From positions 227,680 to 291,679 of the forward strand of contig JBBHKE010000209.1 of assembly GCA_037447655.1 (NCBI GenBank): 64,000 nt of DNA, given 5' to 3'. Source of the stretch: Zygnema cylindricum (Eukaryota; Streptophyta; Zygnematophyceae; Zygnematales; Zygnemataceae). Below the pieces are notes generated by a model. That model was given only the letters and a program-made list of their open reading frames with translations. It had not been told where the DNA came from and made no database searches. Made by a program: the position numbers and the translations under genes. Shown here in pieces: positions 3,161 through 26,636 of the stretch (its first letter is position 1; each line of letters opens with the position of its first letter).

Positions 3161-4054
3161 TTCTTTTCCACTCCATTCCTCCTTACTATCTATGCATATC
3201 CCTGGGGGGGGGGTAATGAACAGAGATGGGCATTATCACGGATATAAAGGAGCATCAGCATTTGGGGTGGATTGCAGGTTTCTCATGCACACCTCCTTGG
3301 ATATATAACCTGGACCTCCCGGTTACCAAGCACGCTCGACAAGTTTCGTACAAAAGTACAAAAAAAGTGTCACATAACGACGTCGACAGTAGAAAGTGAG
3401 TGGCCACGACACATAAAAACGGATGTTTTAATTAATCGTGAGAACCTTTCTCACATGTTTAAACGTCGACCCTATGAACACGGGCTATAGCGCCTACAAT
3501 ACGGGAATGTGTATCCAAATTAGTGTTGGATGTATAAGTTAGCATTAATGTTTTTGTTAGCGTTAGTTCTTTGAACTCGAAGTAGAGCCAATAGATACAG
3601 TTTGATTCTTTATGAAACGATTCACGATGTACCTCACTTTTTGACTGATAAATATTCACCCTTATTGTTGAGCGATAATGATAAGAAAAGGGAAACAATA
3701 AGAAATGCGAAACAATAAGCGCATGTGTCATTTTGGTTGGGCGTAAACGCTTACTTCAACCTGTACAACATAGTACAATCTACGTACACAATAATACAAA
3801 TTTGGTGCGGATGAGTCAAGATTCGGCGGTCAATCCCTTGACGAGCTTTGATTTTCTTTTTTTGAGATAGGAACGGCCGGTGCATTAATTTGGGTGTGTA
3901 TGATATTTTAAAGAGTTCACCACAAAAGACCAAAGTTTTTTGGGTTTTTACTATTAAATTCAAAACAATTTTTTTTTTGCTGTGAAGCATAAGGTTCAAC
4001 GGTTTGAAGGTGTCATGGCGCATCGTGTCGGTTGCCCGCGAGCACGATATAATG
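3161..4054. other. No recognisable gene
   Basis: This is AT-rich sequence with short open frames only. It has two G homopolymer runs (about 3140 and 3210) and a poly-T run near 3970. I see no protein family signature, structured RNA or clear mobile-element terminus here. Confidence 0.5.
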
Positions 4055-4236
4055 CACGCACGCGCGCAGTAATTTGCATGCACGCGCGGTATTTCTCACG
4101 CGCGCGCAGTATTTCTCACGCACGCGCGGTATTTTGCACACACGCGCGGTAACTTGCACGCACGCACGGTATTTCGCACGCACGCGCGGTTTTGAGCATG
4201 CACGCGCGATTTGATGCACGCACGTTTGATTTTTGC
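4055..4236. repeat. 20-bp minisatellite, about nine units
   Basis: Tandem units of 20 bp with consensus CACGCACGCGCGGTATTTCG run from 4055; unit starts can be read at 4077, 4097, 4117, 4137, 4157, 4177, 4197 and 4217, with a few substitutions each. The CpG-rich half alternates purine and pyrimidine. An open frame on the minus strand through the array is only a translation of the repeat, because 20 is not a multiple of three. Confidence 0.9.
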
Positions 4237-4559
4237 GTTCGCACGTGCGAGTTTTCGTCAGTTTATTTGTTTATGATGTGAACACGATTTGCGTTCACAT
4301 ACAATTACATACATACTAATTCTGTGCGCACGTTTTATATGTTTCATTTTGTGCGCAGGTATGCGATTTTTGAATTATGGACGTGAAATATCGTTTGAGC
4401 GACGCATCGCGATTTCCGAAAATATTTCGTGCTCGACCTTTTATTTCATGCGGTATGCTTCGATTCGTGCGTATGCACGCGATTTCGAAGTATGTACGCG
4501 GAGTATTGTTTGGAGGCGCATCGCAATTTTCGGGCGACGCTTCGATACACTATTCATTT

Positions 4560-5250
4560 ATTTAAGTCGCGAACCCATGTAGGTTCGCGCGCACATGTAG
4601 TTAGGGAGGGTTTTTACCCTCGGACAGTGGATTTTGTCAGGCGTACGGCAGACGATGTTGGCCGCCTATTGGCCAACATCTTAAGTAGTTTCATGCATGT
4701 AAAGTAGACTAGACGTAGGCTAATTTTGCTTAGGCCTTGCGTAGCTCTTACTTAGCCTAATTCTCAGACTTAGAGAATTTAGCTTTTGGACAAGAATTTT
4801 CTCTTGGCAGCGGAGATTTTCTCTTGCTCTTTTTCTCACCGATTGCCCACGTGTCTTTCTTCTCCTTGCTTGCTAGCTGGAGAGGCTAGATAGGTTAAGA
4901 ACATTTCCCCTTTTATTTCTGCCCACGTTTTTAATCCACACGGCCTAAGGCCACGTCCGCAAGGTTTCCCTCCAAAGTATGTCTTTTGGTGGAAGTGTGG
5001 AATTGGAGAATGGGGGGAGCACATCTGTACCTTGCTGTGCCTTCCTCGGGCAGCTTGACGGTTTGGTTGTGTGTTTGTGTCTTGTTTGTATTTCGGTTGG
5101 CTTGAAAAGAGTGTATTTTTGATCGAATTTGGATTTTCCCTTGTTCCGGTTGGAATATTTCTTGCTTTGCTATCGTAACGAGATAACTCTTGTAGAGAAT
5201 GTGATAAAGACCAGAGAGCCTAGTGGCTACCTCCTGGCTTACCATAAATT
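4560..5250 (+). repeat. 5' LTR-like block of the gypsy element
   Basis: The block aligns loosely with 15225-16005. Shared landmarks are the GAACC-ATGT-GGTTC inverted word followed by CACATGTAG, then CCTATTGGC, a downstream GGCC-AAG-CC-A-GG-TTTCCCT stretch (4940-4970 versus 15620-15650), and a terminal GCCTAGTGG...GGCTTA block (5218-5242 versus 15990-16010). Its start may lie further left, but sequence before 4560 no longer aligns convincingly. Confidence 0.55.
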
Positions 5251-5667
5251 ATTGGGTTCAGTTCACTCTAGGGGAGTATTCTTCCCCTTCTTTCTTGGGT
5301 CATTTTCACCTATGTTCATTCTCATGGTGTTTATATTTTTTTGACTTTTCATATTTATTTCCGTTGTTGTATATGTTTGTGAGCATGACTTTGCTGGTTG
5401 TGATGCATGTTTGCTTGCTTGCCTCTCATGCACGACAACACTCTTTGAAATATACGCATTATGGCACGCTAATGTACACTGTTTTTGGTTCCGTGCACAA
5501 TTTGTCTCCGTGCACAATTTGTCCAGCTTTTAGTTGGAGACCATCAACCAGAAAAAGAACAAAAAAAAAAAAAAAAAAACAAAAGAACGCAACCGGTTTT
5601 ATCTCAACCGCGGATCAGAAATGTGACAGGCGTGTGTTCGACGACTAAAACAAATTTTTGACCCTAA

Positions 5668-6470
5668 GGGTATGTCCCCATGTATTAAAGTATCGACTTT
5701 AATCTGTCGTTTTCACCCAAAACGTAGTTCCGTACGAGAAATACTTTAGCCGTACAAAGAAATCAATTACAGCAAACTTCAAGTCGATACTTTGAATGTA
5801 CTTCATGTTTGTCGTCATGTGAACGCATTTTGGCGTTTTCCTTTTTTCGACCCCCGGGCAAAAGAATCCAGATCGTCAAAAAACTTCATCAAAAATCACC
5901 TCGCAAGCTGATTTCAGGGAAAGTACCGCCCAAACAACGAATGACAATTGACCCACGCACGCGCCACACGAGTGGGAAAATTTTAGGACGAGGGAGAGTA
6001 CTCGCTATTTTTCTCCCTACCCGTCACGTGCATGTACGGAAAAGACGAGGATGTACGGAAAAAAATGTGCAGGGGTCTCGGACCTCCAATTTCATTCATC
6101 GGTCCTCGGTAGAATTTTGCATCGTCGTCGCCTCTCCCCTCTCCCCTCTCCCTCTCATACTATCACTTTTATCTCACGCTTTTTAGAATGAGGCACGACA
6201 AAACTGGTATGAAATGAAAGATATTTGAAAAATAATTCTTTTGACTACTTTTATGTATATTTTTTATGGCAGGTAAAGCGGAAAAATTAGAGAAAAGAAA
6301 ATCGGGTATCCATGGCTGAAAGTTCTTGTATCTGTGACGTCACAAGTGAGTGTGACGTCACAGTGTTACAAAACCCTAAATATCTGCCATGTCACAAAAT
6401 TACAAAAATGTAGACGTCTATAATTGTCGCTGTATTTGTTGGCGTCACCAATTTCGTTTTCTTTTTATTG
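5668..6470 (+). mobile_element. PIF/Harbinger-like MITE, right end missing
   Basis: The left end reads TAA then GGGTATGTCCCCATGTA at 5665. This is the same terminus as the complete copies at 43047 and 44888. The interior (6120-6460) resembles the interior of the complete element at 33945-34851: a CTCTCCCTCTCCC stretch, then a GGTATC-ATG-CTGAAAG stretch, then a run of GTGACGTCAC words. No matching right terminus was found, so the copy looks truncated. It lies in the leader of the gypsy element. It has no coding capacity. Confidence 0.6.
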
Positions 6471-7312
6471 AAAGAAAAAATAAACAAAAATATTTAAAAA
6501 AAAATATATCAAAGATATATATTTATAGATAATCTATAACTAGCTTTACATTTATAATTACCATTTGCTTGTTAGTTGACATTTTATCTTATTGGCCAAT
6601 TTTCGGCCAACGATATACTACACTAACTTAAGTATTTGGTTTTTGTTTTCCCCATTTTCTTTGTTATATATCTTGAGCATCGTTTGCTCACATTGAGACA
6701 TACTTCACTAAGGAGTGAAGTTAGTGGAGCGGATCCGTTCTTGGGAGCCCTGCAAAACTTCGGTTGTAGCGAACAATCGCAGTTCACCCTTGGCAATCAC
6801 CAGTTTGCTAAGAGTGTTATGTAAGTATCACGATGCCTTGCGGGTACAGGCGCGTGTTAAGGTAGTCGATTGATCGTATAGAGGGATCTTGTTTGGAGTG
6901 GATTAGTGTTAATCCACTTGTATTGAGCATTGCATTTGTCCAGCTTTCCTTGCTTGCTATCTGGCCCTGAGTGGCCTTGGCTGAGTTTGCTTTGCCCGGA
7001 ATGGGATTTCTTCCATAGATCTTGCCGTTGGAGGCATTGGTTAGCACGTTTTTTCATTGTCCCGCTTTAGATCTGCACTTGGGAGTGCTTGGATAGTAAG
7101 TTATTTGCCTTTATAGATCTGGCCCTTCGGCCTTGTCCCCTTGTTTGCAGGGTAGAAGGTTTTGGTAATACAGCTTCTTGATAGATCTGGCCATCGAGGC
7201 CGTGTTATAGATTGATTGGTTGATTGGACAAAAAAATGGGGTGGCCTGGCATTTGAAGCATATCGGATAGATCGGTTTTGTTATCAGGTCATCATTTGGT
7301 ATTATCATTTTT
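6471..7312 (+). other. Gypsy leader; no gene
   Basis: AT-rich sequence (6471-6650) is followed by a leader with a loosely repeated ATAGATCTGGCC-TCG-GGCC motif (about 7118 and 7190). No open frame with a recognisable domain was seen before the gag start at 7313. Confidence 0.5.
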
Positions 7313-7879
7313 ATGCCCACCGATTGGGATAATTTTGATTATCGTATCGGAACAACTCGATCGTCGGCCTCGTTTAGGCCCACGGAATCCGGACCATCAG
7401 ATTTATCTAGTCTTTTGGACCATCATTCCCTAAATATCTCGGGTCAAATTTCCCCTTCGGTTCGATCCACTCTCACCTCAGTATCTTCCTTATCATCAGT
7501 CGCTTCCACATTTTCCGAAGAGGAATCTGACCACGATTCCCTTGACGGGTCGGATTCCGATTCATTATCATTTTGGTTTCCGCTAATTACCAATCCAGTT
7601 TTATCCCCAAGCATTCTATTATTGGAAATGGCTTCCACATCCGAGGGAGGGTGGCGCCTTCATTTATGTTTTTCAGGAATGAAGAACACCATGACTTTAT
7701 CACATTTTCGAATGCTATTCGATACCGAAATGGGTGATCTTGCATTCCGGTACCAAGACCGATTCAACCTACGGGTCGCTTTCTCTCTTTTAGGCCGTTA
7801 CCTTCACGGTTCAGCCCTAACTCTTTATTCTCGCAAGTATGATTCCGTATTTGCGATGACAGAGTTTTCTCCGGCTTAG
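7313..7879 (+). pseudogene. Gypsy gag, N-terminal part
   Basis: This is a 188-codon open frame from the ATG at 7313, ending at a TAG at 7877. It has a serine- and aspartate-rich N-terminal half (about residues 40-85). A helix-rich part follows with the word RFNLRVAFSLLGRYLHGSAL (about residues 150-169), which resembles the capsid-like region of retrotransposon gag proteins, where a hydrophobic helix precedes a Y/F-L-x-G-x-A turn. The frame is interrupted after this. Between 7880 and 8170 several short frames carry gag-like composition but no continuous protein. The assignment rests mainly on its position upstream of the zinc-knuckle region. Confidence 0.55.
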
Positions 7880-8171
7880 GTTGGGAGTCCTGCTATTATA
7901 GGACAACCATAAATTCCATACCATCCGGCTATCCCGGAAGTCCTCGATCTCAACGGCGATGTTATTACAGCAGCAGTTGCAGAAATACCGCAATAGTTTG
8001 CTATAGCCGCACGTGCTGGAATCCCAGCACGACCAGCAATGACGATCCCTATACTGGATCCGCTCTTAGTCATGTTTGAAATGTTGCAAACGTTTACCGT
8101 ATGCAAAACCCTGACCAAGTTTGGGAGTTAATGAACTTCGAACGGGAGTCATGAGAGATCGCCCCTGCCAT

Positions 8172-9195
8172 GCGTGCTCGCATGGAAGCTTTTCGTGAAG
8201 CATTGCCGGACTTAATGTCGGATGTTGAAGCTGTCCAAAAATTTGTAGGACAGTTTCCGAGTCAGTCTTAAAAATTTATTCAGAGTCACTTGACTCAAAC
8301 GTACGGCTTGAAGTTCACTTTCGACCAAGCTGCCCAGCATGCTGTGGAATACAAAATACAAAATTGTTGGTGGGAAGCTCATGACCATCTTAAAGCGGTC
8401 CCGAAAGAACCGATTCTTCCACCATGGAACAATCCTCGTCCTAACAACCAACCCCCTAAAGTCTCGGCCATGGGAACCCCACGTGTTGCTCCCGGAAACC
8501 GATTATGTTTTCGATGCAGGAACACGGGGCATGATGCCCGAATGTGTCCAGACAAAACAGTTACCTGTACACATTGCAAACAAACCAGACACTACGTCCA
8601 ACGTTGTTATATAAAGAACCCGGAATTTTCCTATCAGAACCAAATTAAAAATGGTGGCATTCCCGCTCGATCCGCAAAACCGGTTCAACCGGTTAAAGAA
8701 CCGGAGAAGGACACCACTCCACCTAAGGTATCTCGAAGAGAGAGAGAGCGTTTAGAAATGCAAGAGCAAATGGCTGCTATGATGAAGGAACAATTCGCAG
8801 CCTTCATGACTCAAATGAAACCACAATTTACTGGCATGGCTCGCACGGTTATACACATGCCCATGTTGGCAGGTCGAATCCTGCGAGATTCCACCATCCA
8901 AGAACGAGAGGTTACGATCGACAAAGGTTCAACTGATCACAGCCGTGACGGTAAAACTCCTAACACACGAATTCTTTTGTCATTCACTAAAGAGCTTTCT
9001 CCTCCCTTGCCCGAAACCGCTTCAGCCATCGTAGCTGAAGCTCTCAACATAGTGGATCGAACTATACACGAGGCACACCGCGTAAAAGAACGCTTGTGCA
9101 TTCTATCCACTATGATTTCAGATTCACCAAAAATCTCTCCTATCTCCTTTACGTCTGATAGCTCAGCTGCAGCTGCCACGTTACAAGCACTTTAG
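8172..9195 (+). pseudogene. Gypsy gag, C-terminal part with two CCHC zinc knuckles
   Basis: The frame runs from 8172 with one in-frame TAA near 8268, then stays open to the TAG at 9193. Two CX2CX4HX4C knuckles are visible: CFRCRNTGHDARMC and, after a short spacer, CTHCKQTRHYVQRC (about 8510-8610). In the family these nucleocapsid fingers bind the element's RNA. A proline-rich linker precedes them and a glutamine- and methionine-rich stretch follows (about 8750-8830). The next block, after a small frame interruption, is the protease. Confidence 0.8.
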
Positions 9196-9261
9196 CTGCA
9201 CAGAAATCTGGCTGCTATTCAGCCTATTTCCATAGAGGAGCGAAATTCCCTCGATCCTCAC

Positions 9262-9952
9262 ATGAGCCTTTTGGATAATGGGAAGGGCGCATTGTTGATC
9301 AATAGTAGAGCCCCTTCCCTGCCCCTCATAGATACGGGTGCAAAGCCGATGATATTGGGATTTAGCTTTGCACTCAAGCTTGGTCTGACTCTAGACAAGC
9401 TTCAGTCCACTTCTACTCGGTTGTTAACATCAGCGGGTACAATCGAGCCAGTCCTACGAATCACTAAGGAACCGCTCGTTTTCAAGTTCCAGAACGGAAT
9501 GGCCACAGATTTTGCTGAGATCTCAGTTCACGCTCTTGTCACTAAATGTAGTGACTATGAATGCCTAGTGGGACAGGAGGTTATATTTCGAGTAGGGGGT
9601 GGAGTTGACATGCATGATCAGACATTTTCTTATAGGCCCACTAACTTCGCGGAACGCAAAATCTGCATTCCGCTAATTTCCGCTAGGAAGCCCATGCCTA
9701 TTATGGCAAATTCTGCCACATCCATACCTGCATATTCAGGGAATTTGGTGGGGGCCGAAATATTTCATTCATTGTCAGTTGAATAAATTCTGCCCGATAG
9801 TTCTTCCTTACCAAAAAATTTCAGTGACCCAGGTTTTCTTATAGATACGAGGGAATTTGACAGAATCTATAACCAAACCTTGTCAATTCCACTTTCTCCG
9901 GTCTCTCCCACAATCCCAGTCCCTACAACTCTTCTGGGTTTCTTCCCATTAA
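9262..9952 (+). pseudogene. Gypsy aspartic protease and linker
   Basis: The retroviral-type aspartic protease signature LPLIDTGAKPMILG (around 9319-9360) contains the D-T-G catalytic triad; these enzymes work as dimers and cut the Gag-Pol polyprotein. The frame closes at a TAA (9784-9786), but the same frame continues readably to about 9985 as a linker. It then shifts into the methyltransferase frame. This suggests that protease, linker and methyltransferase were once one polyprotein. Confidence 0.8.
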
Positions 9953-11066
9953 TTGGAATCCGGTCCAATTGTACCCTCATCCAAACGGATTGGTGATTTT
10001 GACCTTTTCACTGGAATAGGCACTTCCCGCCTTGCATGTTTGCAGAATGGATTATTAATCCGATTTTATTATACGGTTAGGATTGATCCGTTACAACGGA
10101 AAGCACAATTACATCATTGTAATATATTGCATTCCCAATACCCGCATTTTTTACCAAAATCTGCATACGAGCATATGCATACTGTCCTCCCACAAGACAT
10201 TCGGATTGTGGGCAACCATCACTTACTGGAGATTGGTCCAATCGATCTAGTTTTTGGCGGATGGGAGTGCGAGGGAATGTCTCGGGCCGGGAAAGGTCTT
10301 GGATTAGCCAATCCCCGCACCAAATTATTTTTTGAGTTGGTTTGCATCCTGCATTTTTTACAAACTTTAGATCATCCTATAGGGTATATCTTGGAAAATG
10401 TCATAGCCTATAATGATCCAAGACCTACAGTCTTGGCTGATTATCAACGGATTGAACAATTAATTAGTCCGCCTCTTATTATTGACGCGGCTCGCCATGG
10501 TTCACTAGCACACCAGGTTCGCTCCAAATGGACGAACCTGGTTGATATTGGTAGACTCCGTGAGGCCAACTTGTTAGTTTGTCCTCCTCTTACAGATATT
10601 CAGGCTGCCCTTCTTCCTTTTCATAGGGTGCAGCCTTGCATCCAAAAGGACTGTCCCCCTAATTTCAGTGTCAATGTCCTTGGTCAACCTCTCAAGGTGC
10701 TTCTTACCTTAGTTTTACCCACATTCACATGCATTCTCTAAAGACGGTCCTGGCATGCTCCGAAACATTCTTACCAGTGAGCTTGAAGAGCCTACCTCTA
10801 CGGAACGAGAACACCTCATGCATTTCATTCCTGGCACTATGGCCGCGACTGGTCTTACAAAACGCCAAAGATGCACTTTATTAGGTCATGTCATGGACCC
10901 TCAGTCTTTGTCTTTTGTTTTAGGTCTTGGGTTTGCAGCTGGTCGCCACTCTCAGGTACATCCGTCTCAACCAGCTGCAGGGGGGAATGCATCAAGAAAA
11001 TCTTCTGTCCCACCCTCCAAGGGACCACATTTCAATTTTTCCTTTTTCCTTCTCCAATTTCACTAG
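9953..11066 (+). pseudogene. Cytosine-5 DNA methyltransferase domain embedded in gypsy pol
   Basis: The C5-methyltransferase motifs appear in canonical order. Motif I is DFDLFTGIG (residues 15-23 of the first segment), the AdoMet-binding loop. Motif IV is FGGWECEGMSRAGKG, with the candidate catalytic cysteine at 10268-10270. Motif VI is GYILENV. A motif VIII-like HQVRSKWTN follows. After a frame change near 10710-10740, the second segment (10743-11066) carries STEREHLMHF and RCTLLGHVM, which fit motifs IX and X. The usual P-C-Q of motif IV reads E-C-E here, and the N of motif X reads H. The domain lies between protease and reverse transcriptase, so it would be released from, or act within, the polyprotein. 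The motif order is not the permuted order of plant DRM enzymes. This copy carries at least one frameshift, plus another at its N-terminal junction. Confidence 0.88.
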
Positions 11067-13015
11067 TCCCGGAGATCTCTATCTACAATTTCCTTAACCC
11101 TAGCCATATGTCTTGGTCTATTCCCGCATATACAGCTGTCCAGTCTACAATTCCTATGCGTATTCCGCCCACTCCTCATTGGAGTGCTGCTTTCCCAACA
11201 CGCAGTTGGAATCATTCGGTTAATTGCCTTAAACAGACACCGGTAGCTTACGAGTTAGGTCAAATGCTTATCGCATATGAGGAGTTGGCCTTTGCACCAG
11301 CCATGGAAGCTATGACAACCGAAAATCCCGATGCTCCTAAATGGAAATTCGGCACCAATCTAACCAAAGTCGAACAAGAGTTACTGAATGACGTAGTTTT
11401 ACGAAATGTCTACGCCTTTGCCTTTTCTATGAATGATTTGGGTCGTCACACCGCTTATAAGATGTCGATAGATCTCGAAGATGATCGCCCGATATTTAAA
11501 CCGAAACATCGTTTGTTAGAAACTTAATGGGAAATGGTAGACAAGCGATGTGCTGAACTAGAGGAAGCTGGCCTAATCTATCGCTCAGACTCCACATTTG
11601 CAGCTCCCACAGCCATGCCTCGGAAAAAGGATTCTGAGGGTAATTTTACTAAACGTCGAATGTGTGGTGATTATCGTGAACTATATGCTAGAACGGTTGA
11701 AGATCGTCATCCCATGCCTCTTGCTGAAGAAATATTTGATCACGTAGGCGGGGCAAAGTATTTTAGTATCCTCGACCTCCGTCAAAGATTGAATCTAATT
11801 GAGATAGAGTAAAAAGACCGGCATAAAACTGCCTTTTGGGGTAGTGACGGCCGATGGGAATGGGCCGTAATGCCGTTCGGACTGAAAAATGCTCCCGCGG
11901 TATTTCAAAAATTCATGGACTCAGTTTTCGGAGGTTGTAAGTTTGCTAGGTGTTACATCGATGACCTCATCATTGCCTCCGCTACTATCAAAGAGTACGC
12001 GGCTCACATCGAATGGGTATTGACTGAATTGAAAAAGGTTGGATTAAAGTGTCATCCCGCAAAATGCACCTTTGGATCCGAAGGAGTGCCTTACCTTGGC
12101 CATTTTATCTCGGCTGAGGGGATCACTCCTCTCGAAGCAAAGGTAGAGGCAATCAGTAAATTGCCGGCTCCCACGGACCTCACAAGTCTGCGAGCGTTCC
12201 TCGGGCTTGCTAATTATTATCGCAGGTTCGTACTTAATTTCAGCACAATCGCATCTCCTTTAAACGACCTTCTCAAGAAGGAAGTGGCGTTTATATGGGG
12301 TCCCGATCAGATTTCTGCATTTCAAAAATTAAAAACCGCCTTATCGAGTGCTCCAATTCCCCTTCCTCCCAATCACAAACTTCCTTTTTGTCCCCAAACA
12401 GATTTTGGAAAACCCGGAATCGCTGCCATCTTGACACAAAGAGAGTTGAGCGGAGAGGAATACCTAGTTGCTTACGCAAATAGAAGCAATAACCGGGCTG
12501 AATCAAATTATAGTAGCTACGAAAGAGAGTGTCTAGCTGCGGTTTGGGGAGTCGTTCACTTTCGCCACTATTTGTACGGAAAACCTTTCACACTCCTAAC
12601 TGACCATCAACCACTGCATTGGCTGATGACTAATGATAAGCTTTCCGCGAAACTAGCCCGATGGGCTTTAATCTTACAAAAATATGACGTTGAAATCATT
12701 CATCGACCCGGTCTGCTTAGTCTAAATGCGGACGGGATTTCCCGAAATCCTTTGCCTCGAACAACGGATAACGGAGTTCGACAGGTGTTCGACGACGATG
12801 AGGTTCCGGCCATGTCAGCGGGTTCTTATCTTACTTACTGTCTGGCCTCTATTCCGAACCCCCGTCCCGCCACAAATCCTTGGCCTGACGGGCCTCTCAT
12901 TCTTTTCCTATCCTCCCAGACCTTCAGGTCCGGAAGACAGAGTGAAAAAGAGGGCCAAAAGTTACCTTTGGATCGGGGGATCTTTAGTTCGGTTGTTGGA
13001 AGACGGAAGCCATAG
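10871..13015 (+). pseudogene. Gypsy reverse transcriptase and RNase H
   Basis: A single frame is interrupted by two TAA codons (about 11525 and 11810). The RT N-terminal block includes the word KMSIDLEDDRPIF. The first catalytic aspartate lies in FSILDLRQ, and the YIDD box in CYIDDLIIAS (about 11955-11980). RNase H follows: QTDFGKPGIAAIL, then NYSSYERECLAAVWG, then LLTDHQPLHWL, with the D-E-D residues in place. The tether to integrase (IHRPGLLSLNADGISR) is intact. The two stops replace residues that are normally sense codons, so this copy is inactive, although the catalytic motifs survive. Confidence 0.9.
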
Positions 13016-14333
13016 GCACGTTCCACGGCCTACCGAGCATCTTTCTCTCATTGAGCAGATTCACACTGAGCTTGGTCACTACGGTACCAAGCGAAGGTTA
13101 AGTTTAGTTCAGGCACGGTATTGGTGGTCAGGAATGCAAGTTGATGTCGCTGCTATTCTACACAGGTGTGCCACCTTTGACCTTCTGCGAACTTCTTTCT
13201 CTAATCGGCAGACTACGCTCTAACCTCTACCCATTAGGGGTTTATTCTATCGATGGTCGGTCGATCTGGCCGGACCTTTTCCCATATCATGTAGGGGGAA
13301 ACAATACATCATGATTATGATCGAAATTTTCAGTAAGTGGGTAGAAGTCGTAGCCTTGCCTCACAAGACAGCTAAGTTAACCACCACAGCTTTTAAAAAA
13401 CATGTCTTTATGAGATACAGTGCTCCAGCCGAGGTCCTAACGGATCAGGGTACAGAATTTCGGGGAGAATTTCAAGAGATGCTTGATGAGGCTCTCATCG
13501 TTTATCGTCGTACTAGCCGGGATCACCCCCAGGCCGATGGCTTGGCTGAACGGGCAATCCAGACATTTAAGCGTGCCTTGCGTAAGCATTGCTTAGAAAA
13601 ACACATTTCGGTTTGGGACGAGTCCCTCGGCTACATTACCATGGGATATCACATGTCAGTTCAGGTTAGTTTGGCTAATTTCAGCCCGTGCTATGTTTTA
13701 TTTGGGCGGCAACCGTTGCTCGATTGCAATATTCAAAAAGCTGCGAGCTTTCCACTTCCACTGATGTGTGACACTATTTTTTTGGAAGAACTCACTCGTC
13801 GTGCTTTGCTTTTTGCCCGTGAAATGCCCATGGCTTTTGATAACCTCCGGATTGCCCAGCATCGGGACACACTTCGGTTTTCCACCACTCGAAGCGGCAG
13901 TTACAGGCCGAAACAGAAGTCCTATCGGGTGGGAGATTATGTTTATCTTCGCTGGCAATCTTTTCACACTTTGGACACGGATGTTTCTGCACACATCCTA
14001 CGTATTATCGAAGTGGATCTGAACAGAATGTTGGGATTACAAGGAGCAGACACACGGACTTTTCGAGAGCACTCCAATAACTGTGCTCCATGTTATCTAC
14101 CAGATTTGTCGCAGGATATAGATCCCATGCGGATGCTGATAACGGAGGCGATAGCATGTACCTTTTGTCATCGATCGGATGGGGAAACTACCATGTTACT
14201 TTGTGATCATTGCAATCAGGGGTTTCACATGGAGTGTTTGGTGCCACCATTGTTGGCAGTTTCGGATGGTCACTGGTTTTGCCACGGATGTCGCGAGCTT
14301 CCGATCGTGTTGGCCAGCTCCTCTGCCGGCTAA
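12940..14333 (+). pseudogene. Gypsy integrase with C-terminal PHD finger
   Basis: The H2C2-like zinc-binding block (HTELGHYGTKRRLSLVQARY, near 13060-13120) is followed by HRCATF, where the expected second cysteine is lost. The RNase H tail and this block are in different frames, and a TAA near 13221 separates it from the catalytic core. The core has D at 13263 (VDLAGP), D at 13443 (LTDQGTEF) and E at 13548 (GLAERAIQTFK): a complete DDE triad. The C-terminus (about 14157-14292) is a PHD finger: CTFCHRSDGETTMLLCDHC, then HMEC, then WFCHGC, in the C4-H-C3 pattern. In known proteins PHD fingers read the histone H3 tail. Here it sits where other gypsy elements carry a chromodomain. Confidence 0.88.
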
Positions 14334-14335
14334 AG

Positions 14336-14350
14336 AGCTGGGGGGGGAAT
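14336..14350 (+). other. Polypurine tract of the gypsy element
   Basis: A GCTGGGGGGGGGAATAA stretch directly follows the pol stop and precedes the 3' LTR block. Position and composition fit the plus-strand primer. Confidence 0.6.
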
Positions 14351-16012
14351 AAACCGACCTAACCATAACCAGCTAAGTCATTGACCTTTCTTTTTCTTCC
14401 ACCTTGCCTATTGTTGTATTTATCCATTGTTGCTTTTATGTTTTATTTCATTTACGATATCTCGCTATCATTTGAGTTTAAGTTGAATATAGCTGATGAT
14501 ATAGCATGCATCTTCATGTTATTTGACACATGCACGACAGCTGTCAGGCCGCATCTCGTTGGCTATTTTAGTTGTTTACATTTAGGTGTTAGGACGGGCA
14601 GCCGCTACACTAATTTGTATTTGGGTGTTATTTGGGTTTCGCAGGACCGTACGACGTGTACTGTACGACCTACATTTTCCGTAATTTCCGGGATTACGAT
14701 TTGAACCGTACCCGCGGTCCTTCCGTACGACGTATATTTTCCGCGATATCTGTCGACGGTGGATTTGATTATTTCGCGTCGACCGTACGACTTACGTTGA
14801 CCGGAATTCTCGCGGCCATAAATTGTACCGTACTTGCGGTCTTGCCGTACCTGTTTTTATTTCCCGGATTTTCCGCCGACGACTCATATTTGAATTCACG
14901 TCAGTGCAAATAATCTTGCCGTACCATATCTATCGCCCGCGATTTCCGTCGACGACTACTTTGTTGATTTCACGTAAATCGTATGACTCACATTTTTCAG
15001 AATTCTCGCGACTACAAATTGGATCGTACCTTCGGTCATACCGTACCTACTTTCATTTCTTGAAATCCTGGCCGACGACAATTTGGAATCATTTCGCGCA
15101 AGGGAGCATCTCGACCGTCGACGCAAAGTATACGATTTTCGTAATATCTCATCTAGACCGTTGACGCGTGTGACAGACAAAGCTACTGTCAGTTTTGACG
15201 AAGTGACGCGATTGGACATTCAAAAGTCGTGAACCATGTGGAGGTTCACGCATTCACATGTAGATAGGAAAGGTTTTCATCCGTAGGTTATAGATTCTGT
15301 AACGTAGGGCATAGGATTTCGGCTTCCTATTGGCTGAATCCAAACTGGACGCAAATGTTTAATAGCACGCTGTACTCTGATTGGCCTGTTTTCGCTAGGC
15401 GTAGTTTTTTGTTACTTAGTTCATTTCGGAACATTTTCTGCACACAATTTTCGAGTGCAGGAATTATTTATTTATTTTTCAGTATTGAGGATTTTCTGCA
15501 GCCATCTTTTTATTTGTAAAATTGTCCGGACAGCTTAGAGGCGATTTTCTGCCTTTGCGTGAAGCGTCTACTTTTCCATTACATCATCAATATCTTGTAA
15601 AACCTTCCATATTAATCTATACGGCTTCGGCCAAGACCTACACGGTTTCCCTTCACTTTTCTCGTCCTTTTGAGTGGATTTCGACCGCGATCTCACAACA
15701 CAAACTTCTTTCCCCGGCTGTGGCTGAATTTTAATTACAGTGGAAGTTGCATGTTGGGATTATTGATTTGTTGTTTTATTTCTTGAGATTGTGTATTTAT
15801 TTCTATTTGGCTTTTGCGCATCTTTTGAGTTTGGTTATCTCAAACCTCATAGGTGTCGGGCATATTGTCATTTCCAGTTTTTATGTATCTTTCTCGGTTG
15901 TTTAGGTTTTGATTCCTTTTATTTAAGTATAAATTCAGATTATTCTCGATAAAGATAACTCCTGCAAGGAATATAAATAGACCGTGGGGCCTAGTGGTCA
16001 TCCATCGGCTTA
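14346..16012 (+). repeat. 3' LTR of the gypsy element (approximate)
   Basis: The block begins with AATAAACCGACCTAACC immediately after the polypurine tract and ends near the GCCTAGTGG...CGGCTTAGTA block that matches the end of the left LTR-like region. It contains CGTAC-rich sequence (14640-15110) and a pyrimidine-rich leader-like part (15500-15730). Exact termini cannot be fixed, because no clear TG...CA pair or target duplication is visible. Confidence 0.55.
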
Positions 16013-16206
16013 GTAATAAACCGACCTAACCATAACCAACTAAGTCGTTGACCTTTCTTTTTCTTCCACCTTGCCTATTGTTGTATTTATCCATTGTTGC
16101 TTTTATGTTTTATTTCATTTACGATATCTCGCTATCATTTGAGTTTAAGTTGAACACAGCTGATGATATTGCATGCATCTTCATGTTATTTGACACATGC
16201 ACGACA
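16013..16206 (+). repeat. Second copy of the first 195 bp of the gypsy 3' LTR
   Basis: Positions 16013-16206 repeat 14346-14540 almost exactly, from AATAAACCGACCTAACC to CATGCACGACA, with only a few substitutions. The repeat starts just where the 3' LTR should end. This gives an LTR followed head-to-tail by the start of another LTR. It is best explained by a tandem or recombined element whose remainder has been lost. Confidence 0.85.
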
Positions 16207-16585: not shown

Positions 16586-16679
16586 CCCACACCTTATGAA
16601 AAAGGTCTAATGTGCGTCGGACCGCAAATTGACAGGGTAAAATAAAGATAGGACACTTAGCCAAAATTTCACCAATTTT

Positions 16680-18460
16680 TTTCAATACCGGAAATTTTAT
16701 AATGGTGTATTTCGGCCGTCTCTTCCAGGATTTCGGCTCGTTAGGTAGCTATTGACCTGCTCTTGATCACCAAAGTGACCAATCTACCCGCTAAACTTTA
16801 TATCGTTAGCCAGATTACGATAAGACTTAGAAGATTCTTCTAAAATAGCATGATTTTGGGGTAAACTGTTTGGATCCATTTCCAAGCGAAGCTTACCACT
16901 TTGGAGCTGCCTAGTGCTTGGGGCAAACGCCTCCAAGGTTGGGGTGGGGTAAACGCTTTGAAACCGGTCCGAAGCTAAGTTTACCACTTCGGAGTGGCCT
17001 AATGCTTGGGGCAAACGCATTTTTCGCAAAAAAAGATTGACTACTTGGCCAAAATTTTGATTTTTGGCAAGTATACAATTTTCGATACTTAGCCAAATTT
17101 CGAGGCTTTTGAAACAGCGCGTACACGGGTTTCGGTACTTAGCCAAATTTCGAGGTCTTTCAAACGGCGCGTACACGGGTAACACTTAGCCAAAATTTTG
17201 TAATTTTTTTTCAATTCTGAAAATTTTAAAATGGTATATTTCGGCCGTTTTTTCCCCGATTTTGGCCGTGATAGCTCATTGGGTAGGTATTTACCTACTC
17301 TTTATCACCAAATTGACAATAAATGCCTTTGCCTTAGCCTAATGCTTGGGGCAAACGCCTTTGCCTTGGCGTAATTGCGGTCTTACTTGTCCAAAATGAT
17401 CGGCTTGGGGCAAACGCCCTCCCAATATTGAGGGACTCCTCCCCCTACTAAGTAAAAAGGGTCAAATGTGCGTCGGACCGCAAATTGACACCTCAAAAAA
17501 AAGATAGAACACTTGGCCAAAATTTCGATTTTTTGCAAAGTATACAATTTTCGATACTTAGCCAAATTTCGAGGTCTTTGAAACGGCGCGTACACGGGTT
17601 TCCGTACTTAGCCAAATTTCGAGGTCTTTCAAACGGCGCGTACACGGGTTTCAGTACTTAGCCAAAATTTTGTAAATTTTTTTCAATACTGAAAATTTCA
17701 AAATGGTAAATTTCGGCCGTTTTTTCCCTGATTTAGGCCCGTGATAGCTCGTTGGGTAGGTATTGACCTACTATTTATCACCAAATTGACAACAAATGCC
17801 TTTGCCTTGGCGTAATTGGGGTCGTACTTGTCCAAAATGACCGCCTTGGGGCAAACGCCCATCCCAGTATTGAGGGACTCCTCCCCCTACTAAGTAAAAA
17901 AGGTCAAACGTGCCGCCTAAAAGGCTACAAAGGTGGCCTTAGCGCCAATATATGGCTTTTTCTTTGGCATAAAGCCAAAAAAATGCTCCCAAAATGCTTG
18001 GGGCAAACGCCTTTGCCTTGGCGTAACCGCGGTCTTACGTGTCCAAAATGACCGCCTTGGGGCAAACGCCTCTCCCAGTATTGAGGGACTCCTCCCCCTA
18101 CTAGGTAAAAAAGGTCAAACGTGCCGCCTAAAAGGCTACAAAGGTGGCCTTAGCGCCAATATATGGCTTTTTCTATGGCATAAAGCCAAAAAAATGCTCC
18201 CAAAATGCTTGGGACAAACGCCTTTGCCTTGGCGTAACCGCGGTCTTACTTGTCCAAAATGACCACCTTGGGGCAAACGCCCTCCTAGTATTGAGGGACT
18301 CCTCCCCCTCACAGTATTGAGGGACTCCTCCCCCTCCCGGTATTGAGGGACTCCTCCCCCTCCCGGTATTGAGGGACTCCTCCCCCTACTAAGTAAAAAA
18401 GGTCAAATGTGCGTCGGACCGCAAATTGACACCTCAAAAAAAAGATAGAACACTTAGCCA
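16680..18460. repeat. Composite satellite: GGGGCAAACGCC units and GGCGCGTACACGGG sub-repeats
   Basis: Several repeat periods are nested here. A unit of about 210 bp starting at GCTTGGGGCAAACGCC recurs at 17996 and 18206, with an earlier relative near 17790. A 50-55-bp sub-repeat (ACTTAGCCAAATTTCGAGGTC then GGCGCGTACACGGG) occurs in pairs near 17090-17180 and 17555-17650. A short CAGTATTGAGGGACTCC unit is tandem at 18283-18385. Blocks with TATATTTCGGCCG and GGGTAGGT (16695, 17225, 17705) resemble half of the palindromic units that follow. Open frames here are repeat translations. Confidence 0.8.
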
Positions 18461-18477
18461 AATTTTCGAAGATTTTT

Positions 18478-19178
18478 CAATACTGCAAACTGTAAAATGC
18501 TATATCTCGGCCGGTATTTGGTGAAATTTAGGTTATTGATTTTGTCATCTTTCCAAAAAGCTACACTAAGCCGATTTCCACCAAATAACGGCCGAGATAT
18601 AGCATTTTATATTTTGCAGTATTGAAAAATCTTCCATATTTTTCAATACAGCAAAATGTAAAATGCTATATCTCGGCCGGTATTTGATGGATTTTAGCTT
18701 ACTAAATCTTGTTTGGTAGGTTATTTTGTCATCTTTCGAACAAGCTTTATTAAGCTAATTTCCACCAATTACCGGCTGAGATATAGCATTTTACATTTTG
18801 CAGTATTGAAATATTATTCAATTTTTTCAATACAGCAAAATGTAAAATGCTATATCTCAGCCGGTATTTTGTGGAAATTAGCTTATTATAGGTTTTTGGG
18901 TAGGTGATTTTGTCATCTTTTGAACAAGCTATAATAAGCTAAATTCCACCAAATACCGGCTGAGATATAGCATTTTACATTTTGCAGTATTGCAACAAAT
19001 TATTCATATTTTTCAATACAGCAAATTGTAAAATGCTATATCTCAGCCGGTATTTGGTGGAAATTAGCGTATTATAGGTTTTTGGGTAGGTGATTTTGTC
19101 ATCTTTCGAACAAGCTACAATAAGCTAAATTCCACCAAATACCGACTGAGATATAGCATTTTACATTTTGCTGTATTG
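18478..19178. repeat. Palindromic hairpin units P1-P4
   Basis: There are four self-complementary units of about 147-165 bp at 18478-18624, 18644-18808, 18828-18992 and 19014-19178. Each starts CAATACWGC and ends with its complement GCWGTATTG. The arms carry ATGCTATATCTCRGCCGG, then a TATTTGGTGGAA word, then an AGCTT block. They enclose a central GGGTAGGTGATTTTGTCATC loop. Transcripts would fold into near-perfect hairpins with arms of about 70 nt. Confidence 0.92.
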
Positions 19179-19194
19179 AAAAGTCTTAAAGTAA

Positions 19195-20107
19195 AGCCCG
19201 TTTGCGCCCATACCCATTATTCACCCTAGGGCAACTCGAAATTAGACTAATTAAACTCGACTTTGTATGTTCAAGAGTCCACGAATTGATTCTCCTTTGT
19301 CCCTTACCCGCTTGTTGCTCGCGATAGCTCGTTCTTTAGGTTTCAGCGCCTTCCTTATGGATATATAAATTTCTTTCCCTCGTACGCCACCGCGTATAGG
19401 GTATACTTTGTCAACAAATTTGTTTAGGTGTCAATGTAAGCCAAGGTTTTACTTATTTTTTGATCGCGCATCGGCGATCTGTCCTTTCTTCGTGCGCAAA
19501 TGATTTTTGCGATAACGACCGCTCGAATACCTACCGAACGAGCCAATCAAGGGTTCAAATCCTCAAAAGGATGGTCGACATACAAAACTCTTGAAAAGTT
19601 TATCCAAAAAATGTCGCGTAGGCCGCGATTCGACGGGTTGGGTACCTTTGTAGCGCAACTCGGAAAATCGCATGCGTCCGCACCGCCTATATATCATTTA
19701 TTTCCGTTTGACGCTTCGAACTGACCAAAACGTAAAGCGCGTTTGCGCCCATACACCTTTTCGCCCTAGGATGACTCGATATTAGACTAATTAAGCTCGA
19801 CTTTGTATGTACGAGAGTCCACGAATTGTTTCTCCGTTGTCCCTTACCCTGTTGTGGCTTGCGATAGCTCGTCCTTTAGTTTTCAGCGCCTTACGTATTG
19901 AAATATAAACCCTTTTCACTCGTACGCGATCGGTTATAAGGTATACTTGGTCAAAACATTTGTTTAGGCGTCTATGTATGCCAAGGTTTTACTTGTTTTT
20001 TGACCGCGCATCGGCGATTTGTCCTTTCTCCTGTGCGCAAATGATTTTTGCAAGAACGACCGCTCGAATACCTACCGAACGAGCCATCAAGGGTTCAAAT
20101 CCTTTTT
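19195..20107. repeat. Long satellite units R1 and R2 (about 535 bp)
   Basis: R1 (from about 19190) and R2 (from about 19731) both begin AAAGC-CGTTTGCGCCCATAC and run through GACTTTGTATGT, AGAGTCCACGAATTG, GCGATAGCTCG, TGATTTTTGC and GGGTTCAAATCC. R2 breaks off after that last word near 20103. The same unit recurs at 26637-27870. The GGGTTCAAATCC word resembles a pol III B box, but no convincing tRNA fold or A box was seen. Confidence 0.85.
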
Positions 20108-20313
20108 TTAAATATTTTTTTATTACTTTTTGTTTAAGACGGTTTTCCAACTTCCATGTTTTGTGATTTTCCTTTTCCTATTTGACCTCTTTTTGAAAGA
20201 GGTAACCTCCACATTTCGGGTGTTACTTTTGGTGTAGGCGGTTTTATAGCCTTCTATTATTTGTCGTTTTTTCTTTACGACCTCAGAATGAACTTTTGTG
20301 TTTTCAAGTTCTT

Positions 20314-20850
20314 CAATACAGCAAAATGTAAAATCCTATATCTCAGCCGGTATTTGGTGGAATTTAGCTTATTATAGCTTGTTGGGTAGGTGATTTTGTC
20401 ATCTTTCCAACAAGCTATAATTAGCCAGTTTCTACCAAATACCGGCCGAGATAAAGAATTTCACATTTTGCAGTATTGCAACAAATTATTCAAATTCTTC
20501 AATACAGCAAAATGTAAAATGCTATATCTCAGCCGGTATTTGGTGGAATTGAGCTTATAATAGTTTTTTGGGTAGGTGATTTTGTTATCTTTCTAAAAAG
20601 CTATAATAAGCTAAATTCCGCCAATTACCGGCTGAGATAAATAATTTCACATTTTGCAGTATTGTAACAAATTATTCAATTTTTTCAATATAGCAAAATG
20701 TAAAATGCTGTATCTCAGCCGGTATTTGGTGGAATTTAACTTATATTAGCTTGTTGGGTAGGTGATTTTGTCATCTTTTAAACAAGCTATAATAAGCTGA
20801 TTTTCACCAAACACCGGCCGAGATATAGAATTTTACAGTTTGCAGTATTG
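20314..20850. repeat. Palindromic hairpin units P5-P7
   Basis: There are three more units of the family at 20314-20478, 20500-20664 and 20686-20850, with the same ends and centre as P1-P4. The spacer 20108-20313, with its TTTTTGTTTAAGACGG and TTATTTGTCGTTTTTTC words, is repeated at 26085-26273 directly before units P12-P13. Confidence 0.92.
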
Positions 20851-21044
20851 AAAAATCGTAAAGTATTTCCACAAAACATCAATAGGGTTAACAACATCAA
20901 CCATCACAATTTTATTTCAAAATTTTAATCACGATTTACAAGTTTTTTTTGTACAAATCATATTGTTTCCTTTTCCTATCTACCACATCCAACAAAAACA
21001 TGTTCTATACACCGACCGCTAACCTTTATCCTATCTTCTTCCCC

Positions 21045-23438
21045 CTAATCCGTTGACTTTTGTTCGAACGCGCTTGCTTTTTTTAACCTTTTGACGTTTT
21101 CTTTCTCTTTCTTTCGTCCAGCTTCATGGTGTTTCTCGAAACACGCCATGCAACATAAGGGCAATTCACATTGTTTGCACCCGTATCGCGTCCGATGTCT
21201 TCCGGACATAATTTTATTTTTCTCTTTCCTCTCGATTGCGGCGCATAGCTTGTTCAAACACACGAGATCGTGACGGTGCGCAAAGGCACACTCGACGCAA
21301 TCCGCGCGTAAATCTGACCCCGGTTCCGCTTTACGTTTGGCGTATTTCGAAATGTCGCGCAACGGCACCGACTCGTGCCTTCCTCTCACCTCTGAAGGAC
21401 CCGCGTACACCATCTTGTACCCGTATTCTCCCACCGCTTTACGTACTAAGATTTCTTTTTGGAGACCATCCAAAAAATCTTCCCTTGTGATATGCCCCTC
21501 CGTCTCTTCGTGCAACAGGTTGTATAAAATCCAAGAGTTCGTCATCGCACCGTCGAGCAGCGCCATAAACAGCTTCAACCACCATCGACGATGCACAACC
21601 GTCCTTGGAGCGTAGCCCCTTCTAAGCAAGCGCGATTAAACTTGTCCACCCCGCTTTTGTACTTGTTGTACATCGTCACGCACTCCAGTGTGTCGATTCG
21701 GCCGCTTTTTCGCCGTTCCACCACTTTGTTGCTAACGCCGAAACTAGTAGACAACAACCACACCGAGGGCACGACGTTCACTTTGTCGACCCATGCGCAC
21801 GCCACCATAGGTTATTGATTACACAACTCAAAACTTGAATCTCCCAACTTCGGAACCCTATTTGTCTTGCCGTCCTTCATTTTTTTCAACCCGTTCATCA
21901 ACTTTTCGTCCAGAAATCCTAATCAGCTAGCACTTTTCCTCTTCTCGTTCCATTTTCGCACAAGCATCGTTCCCAATGCTCCCCATCTCTTTACGGTTCT
22001 CAACCAGCGGAATATAGGCACCTCGTGTACATCCTATCCATCACGACCACCCTACTTTCGGCCTCGATTGGAACACACAACGCTCGTACAATACGCGGTC
22101 GTGCTCCAGTTTGACTGAATTGCCCACTTTTGGTGTCTATCTCGAAAGTCAATTGGTATGACGTTTTCGCGTCGTTCAAAGAAAATTGTTGAATTCCGTG
22201 TTTCGATTTGGGCTTGTTGAAAGAATACCGCTTGATCAGATTAAACTTGTTGTTGTCTGGGATCCATCTCTCGTCCAAACTTAGATACGTTCCTGGTCGG
22301 TAGTACTTCAAAAAAGTCACTTTGTGCTCCGAAATTAACTGCTGAACCTGTCCGCCACAAAAGGGTCAACTCTTTGTTGGAGGTTAGAACACAAAGCCAT
22401 TGAAGACAAAAATTAAACAACACAAAGTTTCCCATCATTTAAAAAAAAAAATAGTAACTCTCACCTGCCAAAGCGCCAGGTCTCCGGATCCTGTATCTTC
22501 GACGGTCTAAATTTGTTGGGTCGCTCGTAAAGGTTTCTCTCTATTTTGAAAAATCGTTCCTCGGTCATGATTTTACCGCGGTTTTCGTACTCGAGGCCGC
22601 CACTAGTGTCTTTCAAAAATGTTTTCAAGTCGGAAGAGGATCGGTCGATTGCGTAACAAATTAAGATGCGCAAAAACGCAAAAAATTCACCCATTGAAAT
22701 ATTTTTCCACGGACGAGGTTTTGTGTCTCTCAGTTTCGTCTCGTAAGCCGTCACCTTACGTGCGTATTTACCTTCACCGTACAAGTTGCATTCTTCCACC
22801 ATATTCTCCCAAAATTGCATCCGCGTCAACGCAAAAAATATTCCCGCTGGCGTTTGCGCGCTACGTCTCCATCTATCCATTTCCAAAATCTGCCCCTCCT
22901 CCTCCGTTTCGGGTCGCATGTCCAACCGACGTTCGACATCTTCACAACGCTCTTTTCGATCGAACCCTTTCAAGCTGTTCCATGTGATTTTCCTACTTAA
23001 ATAATGGTAGGGCAACAACCAAGGGTCGATGTTTTTCAGTTCCCGTGCGTTGCTCGGCGTCTCCGTTTCGTTTTCCACCTCCTCGGTTTCTTCCCACGGT
23101 TCTTCGTCTTCTTCACTCTCACTCTCGCTCACTGATTCGATATCGTCCCATCCTTCGAAATCGTCGTCCGTATTCGACAACTCCGACTCCTCATCATCGA
23201 CTGGAAAAGACGGCGCGGGCCGTGGTTTTCTTCCTTTTCGAGCCTTCTTTGGCCGTCCTTTTCCTCTTTTTTTACGAAGACTTGGTGAAGAATCTGAATC
23301 TTCTTCCCTCTTTTCTTCCTCTTCTTCCAATCCCCTATCTTTACGGACATCGTCAAACTCTTCGTCGACAACCTCATCTTCTACGTTTTCTCCATTTTTT
23401 TTTCCCCTTTGGTTCAATTTCCTTTTTCTTTTCGCCAT
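21045..23438 (-). pseudogene. piggyBac-family transposase (DDE_Tnp_1_7 type), frame-broken
   Basis: The gene reads right to left. It starts at an ATG at 23436-23438 (MAKRKRKLNQRGKK), with a basic then acidic, low-complexity N-terminal region (about 120 residues). The transposase core follows to about 22464, where an AG/GTGAG donor is visible. Downstream pieces hold the three family aspartates: LSLDERW (D at 22273-22275), VVMDRMYTR (D at 22036-22038) and YNKYKSGVDKF (D at 21644-21646). Next comes WWLKLFMALLDGAMTNSWILYN, in two segments shifted against each other near 21625. It ends in a cysteine-rich finger (CKQCELPLCCMACFEKHHE) typical of these proteins. In-frame stops near 21930 and 21810, plus at least two frame changes, show decay unless further introns exist. 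The family performs cut-and-paste at TTAA sites. Confidence 0.85.
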
Positions 23439-23520
23439 GGTTTGCGTACGAGCTTCGTCCTCCTTTGCGGTCAACCATGACTGCACCGGCGCCCACGCAC
23501 CAAACTGACATCAGTATTTC

Positions 23521-25818: not shown

Positions 25819-26273
25819 GATGGTATATTTTACTCCGCTCTCTCTTTCCCTCTTATCTGGTGTCTTTCACCACAAATCTCCTTTCCTCCTCCAAGGCAAC
25901 ATCCGAAAATGAGTTGTTTATTTCTATTTATAAAGAGGACGGCTTTTCGACTTCTCTTTAAAACTCAACCTTTTGTTTTTGTACTTTGTATGAGGCGGTT
26001 GCTAGCTTTTCTTCTTTGTCATTTTCTTTTTGTACTTTTTGGAGCGGTTGCAAACCTTTCTTTTTTTGTATTATATTTTTGTCACTTTTTGTTTAAGACG
26101 GTTTTCCAACTTCCATGTTTTGTGACCTTCCATTTCCTATTTGACCTCTTTTTGAAAGAGGTTTTAAACCTCCACATTTCGGGTAATTTTGGTGTAGGCG
26201 GTTTTATAACCTTCTATTATTTGTCGTTTTTTCCTTACGACCTCTGAATGAACTTTGTTGTTTTCAAATTCTT
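25819..26273. other. Upstream region of the OTU gene; promoter side
   Basis: The sequence contains TTTATAAAG on the plus strand (25928) and pyrimidine-rich tracts. The part from about 26085 repeats 20115-20313. An open frame on the plus strand (25762-26247) is phenylalanine-rich low complexity and partly overlaps the OTU first exon, so I do not call it. Confidence 0.4.
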
Positions 26274-26625
26274 CAATACAGAAATATTTAAAATGCTATA
26301 TCTCAGCCGGTATTTGGTGAAATTTAGCGTGTTATAGCTTGTTGGGTAGGTGACGTTTCTATCTTTCCAACAAGCTATAATAAGCTAAATTCCATCAAAT
26401 ACCGGCGGAGATATAGAATTTTACATGTTTGCAGTATTGCAACAACTTATTCAAATTTTTCAATACAGCAAAATGCAAAATGCCATATCTCAGCCGGAAT
26501 TTGGTGGAATTTAGCTTATTATAGCTTGTTGGGTAGGTGATTTTTTCATCTTTCCAACAAGCTATAATAATCTAATTTCCACCAAATACCGGCCGAGATA
26601 TAGCATTTGACACTTTGTAGTATTG
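26274..26625. repeat. Palindromic hairpin units P12-P13
   Basis: The units are at 26274-26439 and 26461-26625, with arms and loop as in the other eleven units. They lie on the promoter side of the OTU gene. Confidence 0.92.
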
Positions 26626-26636
26626 AAAATCTTAAA

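Follow-up and report, generated by a model that had tools for sequence, protein, structure and literature searches.

A DNMT3-type methyltransferase domain in a decayed Ty3/gypsy copy from Zygnema cylindricum that probably belongs to a PHD-finger-marked clade

We analyzed 64,000 nucleotides of Zygnema cylindricum DNA (contig JBBHKE010000209.1, positions 227,680 to 291,679; this whole 64-kb stretch is hereafter the window, and positions are counted from its first letter) and found on its + strand, in this order, gag-like open reading frames (ORFs), an aspartic protease-like ORF, a cytosine-5 methyltransferase (C5-MTase), reverse transcriptase (RT) with RNase H, integrase and a PHD finger, as identified with Pfam and by blastp to relatives. 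The window element is probably a decayed Ty3/gypsy copy from a clade that is marked by the PHD finger and carries a DNMT3-type MTase in its polyprotein between the protease and the RT. This reading draws on the domains and their order, the affinity to DNMT3, relatives with open reading frames, the congruent MTase and RT trees, and the constraint seen on the MTase at the codon level. The pol order of protease, RT, RNase H and integrase is that of Ty3/gypsy elements, and a preliminary description of this DNA had rightly placed the MTase: it sits between the protease-like ORF (9196–9786) and the RT-RNase H region (from 11525). A retrotransposon with its own DNA-methylating enzyme is a rare combination that has been described before.

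The MTase occupies two ORFs. The first (9953–10741, with similarity from ~9983) contains motifs I, IV, VI and VIII in linear order (PF00145, E 5.5e-8; DNMT3A, E 4.4e-10). Its blastp matches include P0012 (E 6e-48), P0059 (E 1e-40) and P0008 (E 1e-38), where P0001 to P0120 denote the best 120 of 2380 proteins returned by an RT search. The second ORF (10713–11066), in another frame, carries motifs IX and X within 10713–10940 (similarity 10716–10940; the remainder is spacer). This piece corresponds to positions 249–323 of a profile of the relatives (E 5.8e-20; the profile was seeded on six relatives and the window's own N-terminal MTase piece) and to residues 98–171 of P0001 (E 1.7e-16), adjoining the preceding piece, which covers residues 4–96 of the same protein. 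The linear set of motifs I, IV, VI, VIII, IX and X listed in the preliminary description is thus present beyond chance according to Pfam, DNMT3A, the profile and P0001, with IX and X out of frame in this copy; the span 9953–11066 given for it does hold the MTase but is slightly long, as the similarity stops near 10940. The catalytic cysteine of motif IV is retained in the window (WEC); in the alignment this cysteine is kept in all eight rows reaching the motif, and the glutamate of motif VI in seven of seven. A proline usually precedes this cysteine in C5-MTases, which we do not take as defining. Glu-Cys stands there in four of ten readable sequences, from both sides of the MTase tree (the window at ~10259–10276, P0008, P0071 and P0077), and Pro-Cys in P0012, P0048, P0053, P0059, P0078 and a metagenomic contig, L008, discussed below. 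Both in sequence (profile of relatives and window pieces) and in fold, DNMT3 is closer than DNMT1, DNMT2, DRM or bacterial enzymes, as judged by scores; for the fold comparison the modelled domain was that of P0008 rather than that of the window, and the absence of a family from its structural list carries no meaning. The domain is accordingly described, from its sequence, as DNMT3-type. An unrelated Rossmann-fold protein is ruled out by the DNMT3A match, the DNMT3-leaning profile scores and the fold of the P0008 model, and a permuted plant DRM domain by the unpermuted motif order in the window and the relatives.

The copy itself is broken. The protease ORF closes with a stop at 9784 and the MTase begins in a different frame (three-frame translation); the frame changes near motif IX (~10715), the original MTase frame is resumed before the RT, further stops stand at 11522, 11810 and 13221, and the frame changes once more between RNase H and integrase. 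In view of these stops and of the frame changes around and inside the domain, the claim that coding runs on unbroken to either side of the MTase has to be abandoned. Two motif residues are altered: at the acidic position of motif II the window has R, where the seven relatives that align there all have D or E, and at the first arginine of motif VIII it has Q, where the eight readable relatives all have R. Because of the stops, the frame changes and these altered residues, the copy, lacking the open reading frames of an active retrotransposon, is very unlikely to be active, and with its broken frame and two changed motif residues it is very unlikely to be able to methylate DNA now.

What the domain means for the element family is better read from the relatives. 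In the RT tree (117 of 121 rows, four having been dropped by a length filter; a quick tree whose only support values are from the Shimodaira-Hasegawa-like approximate likelihood ratio test, SH-aLRT), the window groups with P0001, P0002, P0003, P0005, P0006 and P0007 in a seven-row set (SH-aLRT 100), nested in a larger clade of 69 rows. The organisms named in it, Klebsormidium nitens, Closterium, Calypogeia fissa and Marchantia polymorpha, would by themselves suggest a streptophyte alga or a bryophyte as host. The MTase precedes the RT in P0001 (C-terminal half), P0008, P0012, P0048, P0053 and P0059, and follows RNase H in P0078 (residues 572–893), P0071 (826–973) and P0077 (928–1045); by eye, the N-terminal residues of P0003 also resemble an MTase end. 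In each of P0012 and P0048, a single ORF of ~1500 amino acids extends from the MTase through the integrase. Elements with the MTase before the RT and those with it after RNase H fall into distinct groups, both in the RT tree (99) and in the MTase tree (97/98); in the latter the window pairs with P0001 (94/90). Nine rows make up the MTase tree, in which P0071 and P0077 are incomplete and one inner branch out of six is starred; it does not include P0053 or the C-terminal piece of the window. P0070 lies inside the MTase-after-RNase H group of the RT tree without a detected MTase. Nine clade members extend more than 350 amino acids upstream of the RT match: in six of them this stretch holds the MTase, in P0071 and P0077 the MTase lies downstream, and P0116 has none; 58 of the 59 MTase-less clade proteins extend 350 amino acids or less, a comparison biased by the MTase itself lengthening the ORF. 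Searches with the MTase ORF alone or length-padded returned no protein at E ≤ 0.001 (574 and 1423 candidates), and no MTase-bearing Klebsormidium protein was among the best 120 of the 2380 RT relatives.

The agreement of the two trees supports co-inheritance of the MTase with the RT, and the relatives with open reading frames suggest that the MTase is a lasting part of this element family. The assignment to the retrotransposon-borne MTases proposed in the preliminary description holds, given the DNMT3-type domain, its co-inheritance with the RT and the long-open-frame relatives that keep it upstream of the RT; the relatives gave no refutation on either of the two counts raised there, absence of the domain from family members and an unrelated Rossmann fold. 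The broken copy and the frame changes around the MTase could also come from a host MTase pseudogene, or an assembly join, beside an unrelated gypsy element. This has a negligible probability and we regard it as ruled out, because independent records from other organisms have MTase and RT together on one ORF or one contig, and among them are long ORFs that run across the junction.

A scan of genome contigs yielded L008 (9285 bp), which is filed as part of a cyanobacterial metagenome bin from soil crust and matches the MTase over its full length (46%, E 4e-87). Its RT-RNase H-integrase-PHD ORF suggests that the contig is eukaryotic and misbinned, and its ends are identical over 127 bases, as expected of a circular assembly. 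We rejected a bacterial or phage origin: four viral-contig searches (window MTase, P0012 MTase, window RT and one DNA pattern) gave no relative, and the genome contigs gave L008 and one short Streptomyces match. A viral-contig search with an alignment-based query returned seven short matches of 26–50% identity. Motifs IV, VI and VIII of L008 are intact. Between the window and L008, the differences at codon positions 1/2/3 are 0.53/0.43/0.79 in the MTase, 0.36/0.28/0.74 in RT-RNase H and 0.46/0.32/0.69 in integrase-PHD, which indicates long-term constraint on the MTase, weaker than that on the RT. These values bear on the view that the MTase is a passenger or remnant, captured once, now neutral and without a role in transposition. 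The lost frame in motif IX and the changed motif II and VIII residues of the window, the EKV in motif VI of P0053 and the many related gypsy elements without a visible MTase would agree with such a passenger; we nevertheless hold it to be quite improbable, as third codon positions differ far more than second ones, the long ORFs P0012, P0048, P0008 and L008 keep the MTase open at ~34–46% mutual identity, and Klebsormidium copies have a ratio of nonsynonymous to synonymous substitutions (Ka/Ks) below 0.2 (text of PMC5890265).

The first ORF of L008 encodes the MTase (PF00145, E 6.8e-12), together with a protease whose match stays below cut-off (PF13650, E 8e-4) and a region that by eye looks like a zinc knuckle, and it terminates in UAG (3489–3491); the RT-RNase H-integrase-PHD ORF follows directly in the same frame (3492–6635) and has no ATG near its start. 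P0018, which represents 226 sequences, is 93% identical to this second ORF and aligns from the fifth codon past the UAG. The bases 3' of the UAG are CAA UCA. UAG-CAR-YYA is the readthrough context of tobacco mosaic virus, and we take the L008 sequence to fit this type. The UAG would then be a readthrough-type stop that places the MTase on the Gag side. Such an arrangement, in which the MTase may be made at Gag level, would also suit an enzyme that acts on RNA, or that serves mainly as a nucleic-acid-binding part of the particle, rather than a DNA methylase. RNA methylation has been raised for LINE elements and the Klebsormidium domain gave no DNA methylation, both according to the text of PMC5890265, and the Glu-Cys of four of the ten readable sequences points the same way. 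We consider such a role unlikely since in sequence the domain stands nearer to DNMT3 than to DNMT2, a tRNA enzyme, and the motif IV cysteine and motif VI glutamate are kept in every aligned row (8/8 and 7/7).

The integrase end is reached by 37 clade members, and 35 of these carry a PHD finger (28 by a strict pattern and seven, with His as last ligand, by eye); the remaining two, as read by eye, are P0012, with a deviant finger, and P0085, with none. Outside the 69-row clade the strict pattern was found in one of 48. The nearest solved domains are ordinary PHD fingers, those of PHF12, WSTF and KDM5. Chromoviruses are gypsy elements with a chromodomain at the integrase end; the window element is like them in having a histone-reader-type domain at the integrase C-terminus and differs in that this domain is a PHD finger.

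The known system to compare is KnitGypsy-Dnmt3 of Klebsormidium nitens, described in the text of de Mendoza et al. 2018 (PMC5890265) as a gypsy Pol with DNMT3-type domains, DIRS-like repeats and Ka/Ks < 0.2. The window element resembles it in being Ty3/gypsy, in its non-permuted DNMT3-type domain within Pol and in its streptophyte host, and differs in the decay of the window copy, whose left repeat is either absent or has diverged strongly. Klebsormidium is also represented in the window's RT clade, by P0024 and P0116, two gypsy proteins that show no MTase. SymbioDIRS-Dnmt3 of dinoflagellates shares the DNMT3-type domain in a retrotransposon Pol, in two domain orders; it has a tyrosine recombinase instead of a DDE integrase, is treated in that text as an independent capture and methylates CG in yeast (PMC5890265). 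The preliminary description had credited charophyte enzymes with de novo CG methylation, which does not match that account: only the dinoflagellate domains were active in yeast, and the Klebsormidium Gypsy domain gave none, a result called inconclusive (PMC5890265). Marchantia polymorpha Mp_2g26090 (P0053) and MARPO_0091s0058 (P0059) have the protease-MTase-RT-RNase H order and fall in the window's RT clade; they differ in that their RT is 50–51% identical to that of the window and in that neither seems intact: motif VI reads EKV in P0053, and a piece of the RT is missing from P0059. These two proteins place the MTase domain in a liverwort. A 2025 survey restates in its text the streptophyte and dinoflagellate cases, naming long terminal repeat Copia and DIRS (PMC12344493), and a 2019 opinion describes such transposons, in its text, as absent from land plants such as tracheophytes (PMC6338049). 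The term PHD does not occur in the main text of PMC5890265, figures aside, and the open-access papers searched, supplements and figures aside, gave no mention of a PHD finger, a UAG or a second domain order for gypsy elements.

DNA methylation is usually regarded as a host weapon against retrotransposons, and elements that keep a DNMT3-type enzyme reverse that. We tentatively propose a division of labour in which the MTase of the particle methylates the element's own complementary DNA (cDNA) while the PHD finger steers the integrase to marked nucleosomes. In working copies the MTase would be made with Gag-Pro-Pol and enter the particle with the RT; it would methylate cytosines in the element's double-stranded cDNA, either ahead of integration or as it happens, and the methyl mark would either make the new insert resemble ordinary methylated host DNA or silence it quickly. 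Because it lies inside the particle polyprotein beside the RT, the MTase seems to be in the best position to act on the DNA copy that the element makes of itself, and the PHD finger, being located on the integrase, to read target histones. On this view elements of the window type may methylate themselves or their host. Methylation of cDNA was deemed likely in the text of PMC5890265, where DIRS elements are discussed. The same position inside the particle polyprotein, rather than as a free host gene, argues against a third use, an accessory-domain defence that would shield the host cell from DNA viruses or competing elements. Host defence has been proposed for retrotransposon-borne DNA methylases (text of PMC6338049); nothing in the sequence points there, and we rate it as very improbable for this element. 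The division of labour between MTase and PHD finger may be part of a wider scheme for this streptophyte gypsy clade, doubtful as a whole, in which a reader-writer retrotransposon combines a DNMT3-type writer and a PHD reader in one polyprotein, so that new copies would enter chosen chromatin and be methylated on arrival. In at least part of the clade the MTase would stand on the Gag side of a leaky UAG and be a major particle component, with RT and integrase made by readthrough only; after capture, the domain would have moved, so that one group has it ahead of the RT and another behind RNase H, and the catalytic motif would have switched repeatedly between Pro-Cys and Glu-Cys. Writer and reader modules are also paired in animal DNMT3. 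The present case extends that of Klebsormidium to a clade with members in Marchantia, a land plant amenable to laboratory genetics, and it ties the methylase to an integrase PHD finger; with both, what a transposon gains from methylating DNA would become testable in a model plant.

Several observations weigh against this account of the element. First, KnitGypsy-Dnmt3, the closest tested enzyme, gave no DNA methylation in yeast, which its authors called inconclusive since human DNMT3B behaved likewise (text of PMC5890265). Second, Glu-Cys in place of Pro-Cys in motif IV of the window and three relatives could alter activity. Third, the MTase profile matches only nine of the protein records of the best 120 of the 2380 relatives, and the RT tree has long branches among the MTase-after-RNase H rows, including P0071 and P0078. 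At last, a CpG-loss footprint of self-methylation, sought in the window as the CpG observed/expected ratio, was not clearly found: the ratio is 0.97 over 7271–16206, 0.97 over the whole window and 1.42 in the B-A-B repeat (described below), and the low values in the protease (0.63) and MTase (0.65) are approached by two Copia elements (0.69 and 0.74).

Downstream of the pol stop, a G run that resembles a polypurine tract was read directly at 14340–14347, followed by repeat B1 (14348–14539), the terminal-repeat body A2 (14540–16014, beginning GC-TGTCA) and repeat B2 (16015–16206, ending GACA), a tandemly repeated copy of B1 with 97.4% identity. B2 is the likely 3' end of the element, as a different sequence starts at 16208. 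The 14-mer CACGACAGCTGTCA at the B1/A2 border (14533–14546) also occurs in L008 at 7048–7061, 100 bases after a G7 run (6941–6947) that follows the pol ORF of that contig. This placement after a G run and at a repeat border suggests a shared split repeat layout, with the bare match itself not significant (E 0.74); beyond the 14-mer, the non-coding stretch of L008 showed no significant similarity to the window's 3' repeat (E 0.28–0.74). In KnitGypsy-Dnmt3 the repeats have the DIRS-like form A-coding-B-A-B (text of PMC5890265). The window shows B-A-B at the 3' side, and the near-identical left A expected of this form is absent, no near-identical left copy of 14540–16206 having been found. A diverged copy of 14540–16206, collinear by local alignment (best block z 12 over shuffles) and ending in the same CATGCACGACA, lies on the + strand at 3826–5437; it is 65–80% identical per 150-base block in aligned columns, and 88% in the last block of 17 columns. 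It could stem from an old 5' terminal repeat, or else from another, older copy. The B1/B2 divergence of 2.6% fits a fairly recent insertion, but together with the strongly diverged copy it does not fit one simple insertion.

The remaining parts of the element, all on the + strand, are as follows. A gag-like N-terminal ORF (7271–7879, first ATG ~7316) is so assigned by its position upstream of the zinc-knuckle ORF and had neither a Pfam match nor a match among the best 120 of the 2380 RT relatives. The gag C-terminal ORF (8272–9195), likewise without a match among those 120, has a CCHC zinc knuckle, CFRCRNTGHDARMC, read directly (PF00098, E 0.014, below the curated cut-off). The stop-terminated protease-like ORF (9196–9786) contains DTGA; its Pfam match is below cut-off (PF13650, E 0.0046), yet it is supported by similarity to the protease part of Marchantia P0059 (blastp, E 5e-12). 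Spacer and pre-RT region cover 10941–11524, in which the frame 11063–11521 matches the pre-RT part of P0005, P0002, P0001 and P0003. The N-terminal part of the RT (11525–11812), bounded by two stops, is 69% identical to P0005 (E 9e-43), and is followed by the rest of the RT, with CYIDD, and RNase H (11813–13015; PF00078, E 4e-19; PF17917, E 3e-32; PF17919, E 5e-27). The H2C2 zinc-binding part of the integrase (12726–13223; PF17921, E 3e-11) is in a frame other than that of RNase H, and the integrase core with the C-terminal PHD finger lies at 13224–14333 (PF00665, E 3e-11; PF00628, E 2.8e-10; PHD at ~14157–14291).

Elsewhere in the window, several families of tandem satellite-like repeats, some inverted, extend over 16655–28374 with spacings of ~184–187 and 531–540 bases. 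They surround a transposase ORF on the minus strand (22461–23510; DDE_Tnp_1_7, E 9e-8), which is presumably piggyBac-like. A 456-amino-acid ORF, also on the minus strand (24339–25709), had no significant Pfam match; its start reads GDGNCFFYALIEA, which we take to be an OTU-protease-like motif. A Copia patch occupies 36004–61206, with a Copia RT ORF at 51874–53760 that is flanked by young, 98%-identical repeat pairs (48374–48598/53774–53998 and 48769–49068/54167–54466).
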